A stretch of DNA of 34,516 bases from the NCBI RefSeq assembly GCF_002155965.1, contig NZ_MUMH01000127.1:1-34516 (forward strand). The letters are read 5' to 3'. This DNA comes from Allokutzneria sp. NRRL B-24872. GTDB lineage: Bacteria; Actinomycetota; Actinomycetes; Mycobacteriales; Pseudonocardiaceae. Positions 11,238-15,750 of the stretch are shown piece by piece (positions within the stretch are counted from its first letter, which is position 1; each line of letters starts with the position of its first letter). The position numbers were made by a program, and so were the translations under genes. The notes under the pieces are model-generated. The model was not told the DNA's origin and made no database searches. It saw only the letters and a list, made by a program, of their open reading frames with translations.

Positions 11238-12188
11238 ATGTCCGCCTACGACGAGTTACGCGAACACCGCCGGTTCGGGCCGCTGTGCCTCGCGCTGACC
11301 TTCCGGTTGCTCAGCGAGGAGGTGCGGAGGTTCCCGGCGCTCACCCCGGAGCAGGGCTGGCAACCCGCCGAGCTGGAGGACCTGCTCGGCGAGTTCCTGG
11401 TCGACCGGATCAAGCCCGTCACCGCCAACCTGCTGGCGCTGGCCACCGACGAGGACTCGCTCGGCAAGCTGCTGCGGACCTCGATCCGCCGGTGGCTGGT
11501 CGACCGGGCTCGCACGACGGCGGTCGGCGCGCTGCGCCGCGCGCTGGAGAAGGTGCTCTCCACCACCTCCGATTTCGAACAGGTGCCCGCCTCCGAACCG
11601 GGCGCGGGCAGGTGGCGGCTGGCGGGCAGCGGTGGCGCTCCGTGGGGCGGGAAGTTCGAGCACCTGGTCGAGGCCGCGCGCGGGGTGCCCAACGTCAAGA
11701 TCCCCAAGTGGTCCAGCGAGACCCGCAGGGCCCCGGTCGCCGACTCCGCCTCGATCGCGGCCGTGGCCAAGGCGGTGCTCACCGCGGCGGGTGGCAGCCT
11801 GGAGCTGGGCCAGCTCGTCGTGGTCTTCCTCGCGCGCTTCCCCGTCGTGCTCGATCCCGTGGTGATCTCGCTGGACGAGGACGCGGGCACCCCGGTCGAC
11901 CTCGGTGACGAGCTGACCCCGGAGGAGCAGGTCGTCGCCGCCGAGCAGGAGCTGGAGGCCGCGGTCGTGGCCGCCGAGATCGTCGGCATGCTGGCGCCGA
12001 GGGAGCGCAAGATCGTGCCCTACCTGGACAACCCCAGGGCGATCCAGGCGCTGCTGGGCATCGGCCGCAGCCAGGCCTACCAGCGGGCGAAGCGGCTCAA
12101 GGAGAAGCTCGCCCAGCTCATCGGCGACAGCGGCGACGCCAGCGCCGTGGCCCGCGAGGTCATCTGGCTGTGCAAGAACGGACGGTGA
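11238..12188 (+). CDS. Sigma-factor-like protein of unknown function
   Basis: 316-residue cytoplasmic protein, not a recognised named family. Residues 10-108 are helical and resemble sigma70 region 2 in layout (a helix bundle with AELEDLLGEFLVDRI and RTSIRRWLVDRAR). Residues 168-205 could be a small winged helix. Residues 225-296 look like region 4: an acidic helix with LTPEEQVVAAEQELEAA, then MLAPRERKIVPYL, then a helix-turn-helix (RAIQALLGIGRSQAYQRAKRLKEKL). I infer a divergent sigma factor or sigma-derived DNA-binding protein. A transcription factor with no RNA polymerase contact is the alternative. It is the first gene of a unit with an HTH protein, an ImmA/IrrE protease and a kinase-fold protein. 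Confidence 0.6.
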   Translation: MSAYDELREHRRFGPLCLALTFRLLSEEVRRFPALTPEQGWQPAELEDLLGEFLVDRIKPVTANLLALATDEDSLGKLLRTSIRRWLVDRARTTAVGALRRALEKVLSTTSDFEQVPASEPGAGRWRLAGSGGAPWGGKFEHLVEAARGVPNVKIPKWSSETRRAPVADSASIAAVAKAVLTAAGGSLELGQLVVVFLARFPVVLDPVVISLDEDAGTPVDLGDELTPEEQVVAAEQELEAAVVAAEIVGMLAPRERKIVPYLDNPRAIQALLGIGRSQAYQRAKRLKEKLAQLIGDSGDASAVAREVIWLCKNGR

Positions 12189-12272
12189 ACACCGGATACC
12201 GGACGAATGACGAGTTGTGCCGTCAGTCAGGGATGCCAGACCCCGAATGGCCGACCAGGACGGGAGTGCACC

Positions 12273-13217
12273 ATGAGTGACCCGGGATTGCCACAGCGTT
12301 TTCTCGACCTGCTCCAGCAGGCGGGAGGGCCGGCGAGCTCCTTCGGCGGACACGCCGGGACCGAGATCGAGACCGGTCAGCTGTGGCGGGCCAGATGGGA
12401 CGGGGACCGCGTCCTCGTCCTCATCCTGAGCGTGGAGGGCCGGGACGTCATCGGCGCCCCGGTCACCCTCGACCCACCGGCGGAGGACGACCTCTGCCTG
12501 GTCGTGGACGAGTCCCGGAACGGTTCCGGAGTGCCCGCGACGCTGTGGGCCGGACTGACCGGCCCCGTCCCCATCCGCGTGCTGGACCAGCCCGTGGAGC
12601 AGTGGGGGCAGGACATCGTGCACTGGGCGGCGACCGCCGTCCCGGTGCCCGCCGAGGAGGTGCCCCCCGGCACCCGCCGAGGCCGCGCCATCGACTCGGC
12701 GCTTGAGCCCGCCGCCGAGGTGCGCGCGGAGCTGGACGACACCCTCGACCGGCTGCGGCTGGCCCCGGCGCTGCCCGTGGTCAAGCCCGGCGACGCCCCG
12801 ATCACCCTGGCCGCGCTGCTGGGCAAGGGGCCGAAGATCGACCTGCTGCGCTCGGCGCTGGGCCTGCCGCAGCACGAGGTGATGAAGCTGCTCAGCGGTA
12901 CCCGGCCGCTCACCCCCGACCTCGCGGCGGTGGTGGCGGCGGAGACCGGACTGTCCACCGAGGACGTCACGCAGGCGGTGCTCGCGCTGCCCCCGGAGCT
13001 GGTCTCCGAGGTCGAGCACCCGCGCTGGCGCACGACCTGGACCGACCTCGCCGGGCGCGACGGCGTCGACGAGGCCACCGCCCGGCTGACGGCGAGCTAC
13101 GGCACGTTCGCGCTGGCGGGTCGGCAGACAGGGGGAGCCGCACCCGACTGGCGCGGGCGGGTGCGGCAGTTCCTCAGCCGACCGGCCGACCCCGAGCCCC
13201 CGAGGGAGGATCACTGA
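12273..13217 (+). CDS. Beta-rich N-terminal domain plus XRE-like helix-turn-helix protein
   Basis: 314 residues, function unknown. Residues 33-125 are beta-rich (TGQLWRARWDGDRVLVLILS onward) and resemble a small SH3-like barrel, distantly recalling PemK/MazF-type folds; that resemblance is weak. Residues 140-165 are a charged helix. Residues 187-232 (LLRSALGLPQHEVMKLLSGT, then RPLTPDLAAVVAAETGLSTE) read as an XRE/HigA-type helix-turn-helix. The ATG at 12273 has GGGAG 8 nt upstream, and an in-frame ATG at 12207 lacks one. The gene ends in a run overlapping the Shine-Dalgarno of the protease gene. By analogy with XRE-repressor/ImmA pairs, this HTH protein is the likely substrate of the protease encoded next. 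Confidence 0.6.
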   Translation: MSDPGLPQRFLDLLQQAGGPASSFGGHAGTEIETGQLWRARWDGDRVLVLILSVEGRDVIGAPVTLDPPAEDDLCLVVDESRNGSGVPATLWAGLTGPVPIRVLDQPVEQWGQDIVHWAATAVPVPAEEVPPGTRRGRAIDSALEPAAEVRAELDDTLDRLRLAPALPVVKPGDAPITLAALLGKGPKIDLLRSALGLPQHEVMKLLSGTRPLTPDLAAVVAAETGLSTEDVTQAVLALPPELVSEVEHPRWRTTWTDLAGRDGVDEATARLTASYGTFALAGRQTGGAAPDWRGRVRQFLSRPADPEPPREDH

Positions 13218-13228
13218 CCCGCACGCTG

Positions 13229-13885
13229 GTGTCCGCGCAGGTCCGGGCCATGCTCGCGGTCCTCGACCGCAGGTGGCCCGGAGCCGCGCGGCGGCTGCGC
13301 CCCCATCCGATCGTGGAGCTGGCCTCGTGGCCGGAGATCCGCGTGCGGCTCGTCGAGGAACAGCTCGGCGGGTCCGGGTGCGCGGTGTCCGGCAGCTACC
13401 ACCCGGAGTTGACCCCGCCGACGTTGCTCATCGGCCGATCGCTGTCGCACCGGCGGCGCGCGTTCACCGCGCTGCACGAGCTGGGCCACCACCTCCAGCA
13501 GACCGACGTCGCGCTCGGCGAGCGCACGTTCGAGGCCGAGAACCCGTTGCTGTTCCAGGAGAAGGTGTGCGACGCGTTCGCCGCCGAGGTGCTGCTGCCC
13601 GCATCGGCGGAGCCCCGCACCGCTCAGGACGTCGTCGCCGCGTACTTCGACTCGGCCGCTTCTCGGGAAGCTTGCTGCGTCTGGGCTTCGCAGCGCATTC
13701 GCGGGACCGTCGCGTTGGTCGACGGTGCCGGGAAGGTGCTTTTCGCTTCGCGACGGGGATTTTCGGGGAGCCCGCTCGTTCGGGCCGCTCTGCGCTCCCG
13801 CTCCGCCGTGTCGGATGCGACCGGCGACGCCGCGTGGTGCGACGGCTACCTCATCGTCGTTCTTCACGTAGCTTCGTCTGCGTGA
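13229..13885 (+). CDS. ImmA/IrrE family metallo-endopeptidase
   Basis: 218-residue protease of the DUF955 family. The zinc motif is H83-E84-L-G-H87 (FTALHELGHHLQQ), and the downstream DAFAAEVLLP supplies the usual third-ligand Glu region. ImmA/IrrE proteases cleave XRE-type repressors to switch on phage, mobile-element or stress genes. After residue 130 is a short alpha/beta tail without a recognised partner domain. GTG at 13229 is the standard start, but its distance from GGGAGGA (13204-13210) is about 18 nt. An in-frame CTG at 13214 would overlap the upstream TGA by 4 nt with better spacing. Its stop overlaps the kinase gene start (GTGA). Confidence 0.85.
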   Translation: MSAQVRAMLAVLDRRWPGAARRLRPHPIVELASWPEIRVRLVEEQLGGSGCAVSGSYHPELTPPTLLIGRSLSHRRRAFTALHELGHHLQQTDVALGERTFEAENPLLFQEKVCDAFAAEVLLPASAEPRTAQDVVAAYFDSAASREACCVWASQRIRGTVALVDGAGKVLFASRRGFSGSPLVRAALRSRSAVSDATGDAAWCDGYLIVVLHVASSA

Positions 13886-14913
13886 CCTTGTCTGCGCGCA
13901 TTGCCGACCACGGCGCGGTGTCCACCGCTCTGACCCTGCTCAGCGATTCCCAGCTGGCCTCCTCCGTCGCGGAGGCTCCCGTCCTGAGCGTGGGGATCGG
14001 CGGGACCGCGTCGCTGATGGAGATCGAGGGCGTTCGCGTCTTCGTGAAGCGCGTTCCGGTCACTGACGCTGAGCGGTCGAACGTGCTGTCCACCGCGAAC
14101 GTCGACGGTGTTCCGGCGTACTTGCAGTACGGGGTGGGGACGCCGAACTCCAACGTCGGGTCTTCGGGTTTCAGCGTGTGGCGCGAGGTCGCCGCGAACG
14201 TCATGACCACGAACTGGGTGCTCGACGGCTCGTGCGAGAACTTTCCGCTGACCTATCACTGGCGGATGGTGCCCTCTGCGCCCTCGCTTCCCGATCCGTC
14301 CGAAGTGGACGAGACCGTGGAGTTCTGGCACGGCTCGCCAGCCGTTCGCGCTCGGATCGAGGCCAAGGCGCGCGCCACGTCGAGCGTCGTCCTGTTCCAG
14401 GAGTACCTGCCCGGTGATTTCTCGGCCTGGCTGGAGAAGCAGGACCCCGTTGTTGTGGAGTCGCAGCTGCGGTCCACGGCGGCGTTCATGAACTCGCGCG
14501 GGCTGTACCACTTCGACGCGCACTTCGGGAACATGGTGACCGATGGGCGTTCGGTGTACTTCGCGGACCTCGGGCTGGCGACGTCACCGCGCTTCGAACT
14601 GTCCGCGGAGGAGTCGGCGTTTCTTGAGCTGAACGCCAGTCACGACGAGGTCTACGTGACGATGCGCGTGGTGAACTGGCTGGTGTTCTCGCACACGGGG
14701 CTCGGTCCCGCTGAGCGCAACGCCTACATCCGGGAGTGCGCTTCGGGCCGGGCTCCGGTTGAGCTGCCCCCTGCCGCTGCGGAGATCGTCGTGCGGAACG
14801 CGCCGGTCGTGGCGGTGATGAACGACTTCTACTGGGGGTTGTTCACCGAGAGCCGGTTGACCCCGTACCCGGCCGCTGCCGTCGCTGAGGCGGGGTTCGT
14901 CGCGCGAGCGTAG
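13882..14913 (+). CDS. Protein-kinase-fold phosphotransferase of unknown substrate
   Basis: 343-residue protein with the full set of kinase-fold landmarks: a glycine-rich loop (VGIGGTAS, 37-44), beta3 lysine K56 (VFVKRVP), helix-C glutamate E102 (WREVAANV), the hinge stretch FQEYLPGDF, the catalytic loop H210-x-D212 to N217 (HFDAHFGN), and the metal-binding D229-L-G (FADLGLA). This arrangement fits Ser/Thr-kinase-like or aminoglycoside-phosphotransferase-like enzymes. It should be ATP-dependent, but whether protein or small molecule is phosphorylated is unknown. The GTG start at 13882 overlaps the protease stop by 4 nt, and GTG 13918 is an alternative. The overlap argues that it works with the ImmA-type protease and HTH protein. 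Confidence 0.75.
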   Translation: MTLSARIADHGAVSTALTLLSDSQLASSVAEAPVLSVGIGGTASLMEIEGVRVFVKRVPVTDAERSNVLSTANVDGVPAYLQYGVGTPNSNVGSSGFSVWREVAANVMTTNWVLDGSCENFPLTYHWRMVPSAPSLPDPSEVDETVEFWHGSPAVRARIEAKARATSSVVLFQEYLPGDFSAWLEKQDPVVVESQLRSTAAFMNSRGLYHFDAHFGNMVTDGRSVYFADLGLATSPRFELSAEESAFLELNASHDEVYVTMRVVNWLVFSHTGLGPAERNAYIRECASGRAPVELPPAAAEIVVRNAPVVAVMNDFYWGLFTESRLTPYPAAAVAEAGFVARA

Positions 14914-15066
14914 CGGCTTCCGCGCTGGTGATGTCGACGAGCGCCAGTTTCGGTGCCGCCCGCGCGGGAAGCGTCCACTGTGGACGACGAAGTCGTGGTG
15001 AAGTTGCTGCATCCGGGTGAAGGATTGCCTACGTGGCAAGCTCGTTCCGTTCGTATTTTTCGGACT
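14914..15066. promoter_or_regulatory. Intergenic region with probable leaderless promoter for the DUF1963-like gene
   Basis: TATTTT (15054-15059) lies 7 nt before GTG 15067, the pattern of a leaderless transcript. The palindrome GTCCACTGTGGAC (14973-14985), which recurs elsewhere in the window, lies in the middle. No gene seen. Confidence 0.4.
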
Positions 15067-15750
15067 GTGCAGCCCACGAACCCGCCGACCAACCCGCCGA
15101 CCAACGCGGACCTCGTCTCCGTCGCACTGCCCGCCATGCGCCTGCACCCGACACCCGGGCGACCGGGAACGGGACAGAGCCACATCGGCGGGCCCCTGCT
15201 GTGGCCAGCCGACGAGGCGTGGCCGAGCGCGGCCTACAGCGAGCTCCAGCTCTACCGCAAGGACTTCCCGAGCCTGCCCTTCCCCAGGGGCACCGACCTG
15301 CTCCAGGTGCTCCTCTGCCCAGGAGGGACCCTGGACGGGCCGGGCGCGCAGGTCATCTGGCGCGCCTCCCGCGCCGTCACCGACGTGATCGCGGAGCCAC
15401 CGCCGCGCCCGCTCTACGACGACGACCACTTCCACGCCAAGCCCTGTGTGCTGGAGCCGTGCCGGATCGACGAGCACCCGCTCTCGGTCACCTTCGCGCA
15501 GGGGTGCAAGGTCGGCGGGTGGACCACCTGGTACGGCGGGGAACCGCACCACCTGCTGCGCTGCCCGCAGTGCGCGGAGGTGCGGCGGCCGCTGATCGGG
15601 CTGGACACCTACGAGTTCCCGCACCGCTCGTGCGCCCACCAGCCGAAGACGGTCAACCCGGTCGGCTGGAAGTTCGGCAGCCTGGGCGCCCTCTACGTCT
15701 TCGCCTGCGCGCGGGACCCGAGGCACCCGGCGATCACGTTCGAGGACTGA
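15067..15750 (+). CDS. DUF1963-like protein
   Basis: 227 residues, cytoplasmic, function unknown. The motif HIGGPLLWPADEAWP followed by LPFPRGTDLLQVLLCP is characteristic of DUF1963/YwqG-like proteins of actinobacteria. The C-terminal part (GGWTTWYGGEPHHLLRCPQC and GSLGALYVFACARDPRHP) carries a CPxC and further cysteines that may bind metal. The start is GTG 15067, preceded at 7 nt by TATTTT. An upstream in-frame extension to 14953 has no initiation signal. The N-terminus contains a short 12-bp tandem repeat coding NPPTNPPTN, a possible replication-slippage site. Confidence 0.65.
   Translation: MQPTNPPTNPPTNADLVSVALPAMRLHPTPGRPGTGQSHIGGPLLWPADEAWPSAAYSELQLYRKDFPSLPFPRGTDLLQVLLCPGGTLDGPGAQVIWRASRAVTDVIAEPPPRPLYDDDHFHAKPCVLEPCRIDEHPLSVTFAQGCKVGGWTTWYGGEPHHLLRCPQCAEVRRPLIGLDTYEFPHRSCAHQPKTVNPVGWKFGSLGALYVFACARDPRHPAITFED

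Follow-up and report, generated by a model that had tools for sequence, protein, structure and literature searches.

The window analysed here, a stretch of 34,516 nt from Allokutzneria sp. NRRL B-24872, carries four consecutive genes on its forward strand, designated g1 to g4, which encode a sigma-70-like protein, a protein with a predicted MazF-type fold and a helix-turn-helix (HTH), an ImmA/IrrE-type protease and a protein of the kinase fold. The first three genes recur in the same order and strand in 26 loci, most of which have an immune operon downstream. In most such loci, a subtype-specific promoter-like element is located upstream of g2, and a second copy precedes the immune operon. The reading favoured here, in which we place somewhat more belief than doubt, is that the triad g1-g2-g3 serves immune operons of Actinomycetota as a portable controller: g3 would destroy g2, an inhibitor of the sigma factor g1, and the freed g1 would fire private promoters at g2 and at the controlled genes (the payload).

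Distribution of the g1-g2-g3 Triad

All four open reading frames (ORFs) are real and lie where an earlier interpretation from the letters of the window, here called the sequence-only reading, had placed them. That interpretation took the four families as one unit. The co-occurrence check bears this out for the three-gene core (the window, L021-L023, L031-L033, L035-L037, L041-L055, and L131), and the full set of four was seen in no genomes other than three of the window's genus. In the count of loci, three plasmid records of S. longwoodensis are taken as one, L038 is the same plasmid as L035, and L034 is left out. The latter, a plasmid of M. chubuense, has no g1 beside g2, the ORF there being unrelated, and its g3 is annotated in two pieces. 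A module confined to the window's genus is ruled out by the relatives in other genomes and plasmids.

Among 150 genomes of the family, g1 is present in five and g2 in five, the window's own genome included, and G034, G068, and G030 hold both genes adjacent. Plasmid searches provided five records for g1 and seven for g2. A search of named genomes with g3 only led to 20 loci, with the full triad in order and strand in 15 (L041-L055); three of the others contain g2-g3 only, one has a broken g3 and one lies at a contig edge. In L054, g3 matches two overlapping frames.

The module is rare. Among the matches listed, full-length g1 is found in 4 of 394 genomes of the class, with fragments in a fifth. 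A 21-row g1 profile matched in 147 of the 394, and outside these five genomes the matches listed are C-terminal segments only. Of the 25 loci with such segments that were checked, 11 showed no match to an own-genome sigma profile, and 14 matched one at E <= 2.3e-5.

Genes Downstream of the Triad

In 19 of the 26 loci, the triad is followed on the same strand by a cyclase of the cyclic oligonucleotide-based antiphage signaling system (CBASS; 12 loci) or by an E1/ThiF operon (seven loci). The cyclase, a CD-NTase, is directly downstream in L021, L031, L033, L036, L037, L041, L042, L044, L045, L048, L049, and L051. It was assigned by family models in four loci, by BLAST cluster in seven more and by N-terminal sequence in L037. 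The E1/ThiF operons are those of L032, L035, L043, L046, L050, L054, and L131, and the ones scanned include Multi_ubiq, DUF6527, DUF6791, E2 or JAB partners.

Two of the CBASS loci carry further components. L031 also encodes an E2 (1.4e-79) and a single-transmembrane (1TM) effector (6.9e-27). In L021 (genome G030), the triad is placed inside a type II CBASS operon, with a TIR-SAVED effector directly upstream and the CD-NTase, E1-E2, and JAB genes downstream (SMODS 3.6e-15, SAVED 1.5e-28, ThiF 4.3e-21, Prok-JAB 2.1e-11).

In the window, L022, and L023, a kinase gene follows the triad. L047 has only a small gene common to L032, L046, and L054.

Other genes were observed upstream of some triads. 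Three genes (190, 775, and 254 aa) located before the TIR-SAVED gene (L021:3046-6703, forward strand) had no convincing Pfam or PADLOC match and are possibly an unknown defence unit. An AAA ATPase and an IetS-like subtilase lie directly upstream of g1 at L035:4292-7824 and L043:3437-7098 (called by family models on L035 and by BLAST cluster on L043), and a Multi_ubiq/E2/ThiF operon is downstream, so that two candidate defence units flank one controller.

The Twin Promoter-Like Element

Payload gaps, defined as the interval from g3 to the payload together with the last 45 nt of g3, were analysed in 20 loci, which include L034 and exclude the window's genus. GGAC-N16-CGTC is present in six of the 20, against 0.19 expected from the same loci, and when Y is allowed for C at both ends of CGTC, in eight, against 0.39 expected. 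The spacing from GGAC to CGTC in these gaps is constant, that is, six sites at 16 and none at 10-15 or 17-20.

In the subtype of the window, the element is GGACGAT-N9-TGTCCCGTC. The site of the window (GGACGAATGACGAGTTGTGCCGTC) is located before g2-g3-g4 at 12201..12224 on the forward strand and conforms to GGAC-N16-CGTC, with a -35-like block at 12201-12204 and a -10-like block at 12221-12224. The element is also placed between g1 and g2 in L021, L022, and L023, and it is identical in two congeners. With a matrix built from seven payload gaps, all of them outside the window's genus, 12201-12224 ranks 1 of 68,986 window positions. None of 1,975 random windows attained its score, and L022 and L023 likewise gave 0. 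In a leave-one-out test on the 17 loci with a trained subtype, none of ~1,960 random windows scored as high as the best site in the 150 nt upstream of g2 in 13 loci; in the remaining four, 13/1960 (L044), 21/1955 (L042), 62/1956 (L046), and 79/1964 (L031) did so. Related loci are not independent trials in this test, and it counts against our interpretation that the 150-nt span and the starts chosen for g2 in L033, L043, and L048 were fixed after the sites were known.

A second subtype (GARTTACGTCGTCTGTCCC) is found in ten loci and also recurs before g2. There, among the sites of the entire locus, it ranks 2 in eight loci, 3 in L032 and 11 in L046; in four of the eight (L033, L044, L045, and L048) it falls within the final part of g1, beyond the gap that was initially searched. 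L053 was matched for this subtype by 5/1955 random windows. L131 shows a candidate third version, GACA-N16-CGTT, at both places with the spacing kept. Before g1 the element is weak, and the best site in the 250 nt upstream of the window's g1 ranks 13 of 68,986.

The exact pattern GGAC-N11-TGTNNCGTC has three matches in the 8.19 Mb of the own genome, the window site being one of them, against two for the reversed-pattern control. The pattern is not enriched and a genome-wide regulon was therefore rejected, so that no regulon extends visibly beyond the module. With one mismatch, one match was found in the window against 1.84 expected from shuffles, neither rarer nor commoner. Four g2-g3 loci without g1, which are distant and have no recognised payload, show no shared element, and g1 is for this reason favoured as the reader of the element.

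The Proteins of the Triad

The g1 gene (11238..12188, forward strand) encodes 316 aa, with region-2-like residues at ~48-99 and region-4-like residues at ~243-299, in the correct order for a sigma factor. The sigma70 resemblance claimed by the sequence-only reading is real but remote, and its region 4 is borne out. In profile alignments that used 21 or 27 sigma-family proteins from the window's own genome, the C-terminus aligns to region 4 with P from 2e-4 to 7e-4; its scores of 28.5-31.6 lie above the shuffled maximum (12.5) and the HTH control (20.9). The N-terminus aligns in register to region 2 (P 0.017-0.027). Its scores of 20.6-21.8 exceed the shuffled maximum of 10.7 and the reversed value of 15.4 but do not improve on the HTH control, and no curated model matched this region. 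The Pfam scan of g1 gave no match, and its structure model has a predicted local distance difference test (pLDDT) value of 82.6. A distant relative, L130, matches Sigma70_r4 at 8.9e-5 (22.4 bits, cutoff 24.1). Judged by these resemblances, g1 would be a sigma factor, and the twin element of the modules with g1 is an indirect hint that it may direct RNA polymerase there.

L130 (genome G658; L130:1-7930) is a clearer sigma relative of g1, followed by a g2-like gene and an AAA-like ORF, both recognised by eye. Another gene there matches DUF6079 weakly and resembles BrxC by eye, and from this neighbourhood the control logic may extend to BREX-like systems. Another candidate relative, L012/L132 (G001), has 26% identity over a part and no g2 or g3 alongside, and was dropped as chance.

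The g2 gene (12273..13217, forward strand) encodes 314 aa. Its start is most likely ATG 12273 and not 12207, because the latter falls within the promoter-like element and the alignment with the closest relatives begins at the same MSD. Both parts of the protein that had been noticed before were confirmed and specified. The HTH is XRE/HigA-like, with profile matches to HigA 2icp (2.4e-4) and phage CI 3kz3 (8.3e-4); the top-ranked match, to a designed repeat protein, was set aside as an artefact that arose by adding up weak matches. The "beta-rich" part corresponds to an N-terminal MazF-type fold in the predicted structure (pLDDT 83.7). In Foldseek, the model matches 6kyt_E (E 8.7e-4, probability 1.00, target template-modelling score 0.68); no other match reaches E <= 1e-3, and by title MazF-family proteins make up 49 of the 50 matches listed.

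An HxxxCxxC motif is present within the first 70 aa of 2 of the 25 g2 relatives scanned (L055 and L131), with a background of 8 in 3,085 ORF rows, two of which are the same L131 gene. A zinc anti-sigma domain in the g2 of L131 was confirmed neither by Pfam nor by the own-genome profile, and the sequence was for that reason kept solely as a motif. By analogy with the Calp system described below, and from the MazF fold and the motif of the two relatives, g2 is a putative inhibitor (anti-sigma factor) of g1; as a repressor, it would fit the alternative weighed below.

The g3 gene (13229..13885, forward strand; 218 aa) is an ImmA/IrrE-type zinc protease, as previously recognised, with matches to Peptidase_M78 (2.2e-8) and capP (3.3e-8), and HELGH at residue 83. 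It also matches the CapP structure 7t5t. In the three kinase-bearing genomes (window, L022, and L023), g3 is short, with 218, 214, and 221 aa against 338-350 in relatives. The protein of the window lacks ~120 residues of these, and the Cys-rich C-terminal domain and an internal stretch are missing from it. By its likeness to CapP, which cleaves CapH, g3 may cleave g2.

Proposed Mechanism

The most economical reading of the triad is that of a protease, an inhibitor and a sigma factor. g1 would be an alternative sigma factor for a private promoter located before g2 and before the controlled operon. g2 would keep g1 inactive and may additionally occupy the promoter. The CapP/IrrE-like g3 would be triggered, by analogy through single-stranded DNA from phage or DNA damage, and would then cleave g2. 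Free g1 would turn on g2-g3, by which the brake is re-set, as well as the payload, which would be the kinase g4 in the window's genus and CBASS or a ubiquitin-like operon with E1/ThiF elsewhere. Observed are the conserved triad with its payloads, the twin element, the fold predicted for g2 and the family of g3, whereas the sigma activity of g1, the anti-sigma role of g2, its cleavage by g3, the trigger and the part played by the kinase are inferred.

Several results weigh against this reading. g1 matches TIGR02937 at E = 0.037, below the model cutoff; the same model is matched at E <= 0.1 by 2 of 16 g1 members, and no single g1 passes a curated sigma cutoff. The region 2 score equals that of the unrelated g2 HTH control profile (20.9). 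In Foldseek, the g1 model has no match at E <= 1e-3, with sigma factors at ranks 2-4 and E > 1. In g2, Pfam found no zf-HC2 in L131, and the zf-HC2 profile detects L055 at E 0.48 only and L131 not at E <= 10. As regards the element, subtype 2 consists of a single conserved block with no clear -35, L036 fails the random-window test (383/1942), and L037 is similar by rank. L052, L053, and L055 have no subtype-1 site, a free search for a shared element gave nothing convincing, and neither of the two flanking ORFs scanned per locus was recognisable as a payload. Lastly, the g3 of the window is truncated.

The strongest rival is an operator for the HTH of g2, because outer GGAC...GTCC arms, such as a repressor operator might have, are present in 11 of the 16 subtype-1 sites. 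In this CapH/CapP-type switch, g3 would cleave the repressor g2, and g1, instead of being the sigma factor of these promoters, would act as an activator or accessory DNA-binding protein. By raw counts, as many as 8 of 10 pairs are palindromic, but by the same counts 12 of the 16 sites have only 4-6 of 10, and the information is placed in two blocks with an invariant spacing of 16 nt. The position of the element before g2 and the payload also fits autorepression, and the clear HTH of g2 and the capP and 7t5t matches of g3 speak for this switch as well. L034, which keeps both element sites though no g1 stands beside g2, speaks for this switch and against the sigma reading. On the contrary, the twin element is missing from the distant g1-less loci, and g1 is kept throughout the 26 triads. 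On balance, we consider this switch a possible explanation, though an unlikely one.

The Kinase Gene and Its Neighbourhood

The g4 gene (13882..14913, forward strand) overlaps g3 by 4 nt (GTGA, 13882-13885), in agreement with the sequence-only reading. The kinase landmarks listed there (K56, E102, H210, D212, N217, and D229) are all present and identical in 30 of 30 aligned rows, that is, the window and relatives picked by BLAST alone. The Pfam scan gave no match for g4, and a separate model, Bud32, was matched at 2.1e-4, far below its cutoff.

Relatives of g4 are common. They are found in 39 of 150 family genomes and in 49 plasmid records, and in three annotated plasmids they lie amid unrelated genes. 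No triad gene is present within the 1.5 kb flanks of 28 kinase loci outside the triads of the three genomes (27 in other genomes and one in the own genome). The latter (G000:C431; L133:5358-6353) is a second family copy, ~50% identical, which lies near an ORF that resembles a polyketide synthase gene by eye.

These data bear on the cascade proposed in the sequence-only reading, in which g4 would sense stress and signal to g3, which would then release g1. The landmark residues are intact and g4 is translationally coupled to g3. As g3 lacks its C-terminal Cys-rich domain in the three kinase-bearing genomes, the kinase could have replaced a sensor, and there is a precedent for a kinase that controls immune operons in CapK/CapS (PMC13373217). 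However, CapK is a GHKL kinase, of a fold other than that of g4. Moreover, the kinase accompanies 3 of the 26 triads, all from the window's genus, and the other 23 loci, each 13.6-20.9 kb long, lack it; 28 relatives elsewhere have no adjacent triad gene, and g4 is downstream of the promoter-like element, where other triads hold their payloads. A conserved four-gene cascade was accordingly rejected, and a sensory role of the kinase in this genus seems very improbable to us. Its restriction to these few triads and the commonness of its family without a triad make it most simply the gene controlled in this genus. Thus, g4 is more likely a payload than a sensor, and probably the payload of the window's unit.

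It might also be argued that the locus is a decaying relic, which lost its ancestral immune payload and part of g3, and to which a resident kinase was attached by deletion with no present function. No recognised immune operon, CD-NTase included, was found beside the window unit, and in the window scans no cyclase or E1 family model matched g1-g4 or the next ORF (14953-15750). Besides the ~120 residues missing from g3, the ratio of nonsynonymous to synonymous substitution rates (dN/dS) against two congeners is highest in g3 (0.30-0.37) and g4 (0.27-0.33), with 0.12-0.15 in g1 and 0.15-0.18 in g2; the fast evolution of g3, shared with g4, is also a point against the favoured reading. Nevertheless, all four genes are under purifying selection, with dN/dS clearly <1, and three species retain both the active-site motif and the promoter-like site. 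Decay is consequently regarded as improbable.

Differences among the congeners were observed beyond g4. The protein of 14953-15750 has a PTNPPTNPPTN stretch against a single PTN in congeners, a small repeat expansion. Related ORFs, HNH-like by eye, are found between the kinase and the next gene at L022:5539-7742 and L023:13474-14727, unlike in the window, where none was called. The same interval of L022 also contains an ORF resembling a beta-lactamase gene.

Comparison with Known Systems

The question addressed by these loci is how bacteria keep suicidal immune operons silent, and the triad may exemplify one more way of holding dangerous immunity genes off until needed. Parts of the logic are already known, that is, the protease-anti-sigma-sigma chain from Calp and the HTH protein with an M78 protease from CapHP.

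CalpT is a MazF-like protein, and a MazF fold is predicted for g2. In the type III CRISPR system Calp (CalpL-CalpT-CalpS), a protease cleaves an anti-sigma factor and frees a sigma factor as an immune response (PMC12751052, PMC11229360), the same logic as proposed here; the main text of these two sources does not mention MazF. Unlike Calp, the protease of the triad is ImmA/IrrE (Peptidase_M78) and not SAVED-Lon, g2 additionally carries an HTH, no CRISPR gene was found among the flanking proteins scanned, and what the triad would control is CBASS, a ubiquitin-like operon or a kinase. If the proposed mechanism is true, CBASS and ubiquitin-like operons would be tied to a Calp-like logic outside CRISPR.

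The pair CapH and CapP is similar in that an HTH protein and an M78 protease matching capP adjoin CBASS or ubiquitin-like operons, in the relatives and not in the window. It differs from the triad, which has a conserved sigma-like third gene, a MazF-fold domain in g2, and a two-block promoter-like element repeated before g2 and the payload. CapH is not known to have a MazF-fold domain. According to PMC13373217, the protease CapP cleaves the HTH protein CapH; CapK (a GHKL kinase) with CapS (a STAS-wHTH repressor), and CapW/BrxR (CapW being a WYL protein), are portable controllers of many different immune operons; and CapW, CapH, and CapS are repressors. The triad shares the portability on varied immune operons, and g1-g4 are set apart from these controllers by their descriptions. 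In contrast to repressor controllers, a dedicated sigma factor would, if confirmed, be a positive switch.

Promoters of extracytoplasmic function (ECF) sigma factors have a layout that resembles the GGAC-N16-CGTC type. As in ECF sigma/anti-sigma pairs, a sigma-like gene adjoins a probable inhibitor here. On the other hand, g1 has ~316 aa, a long linker and scores below sigma cutoffs, the inhibitor is a MazF-HTH protein, and the unit is linked to a protease and immune genes. Should the element serve g1, it would provide a readable promoter signature for finding further hidden immune payloads, such as the kinase of the window.

In the titles and abstract openings listed by searches of the openly licensed PubMed Central literature, no description was found of a portable unit in which a sigma-like factor, a MazF-HTH protein and an M78 protease together control CBASS and ubiquitin-like operons. 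We give an even chance to the wider proposal that a self-contained cassette of sigma factor, MazF-HTH anti-sigma factor and ImmA protease, with twin promoters that change together with the sigma factor, is a further class of immune-operon controllers beside CapW, CapHP, and CapKS, transferred among CBASS, ubiquitin-like and other operons throughout Actinomycetota, to which the window's genus, with a protease devoid of the C-terminal domain, would have added a coupled kinase as payload or substitute sensor.

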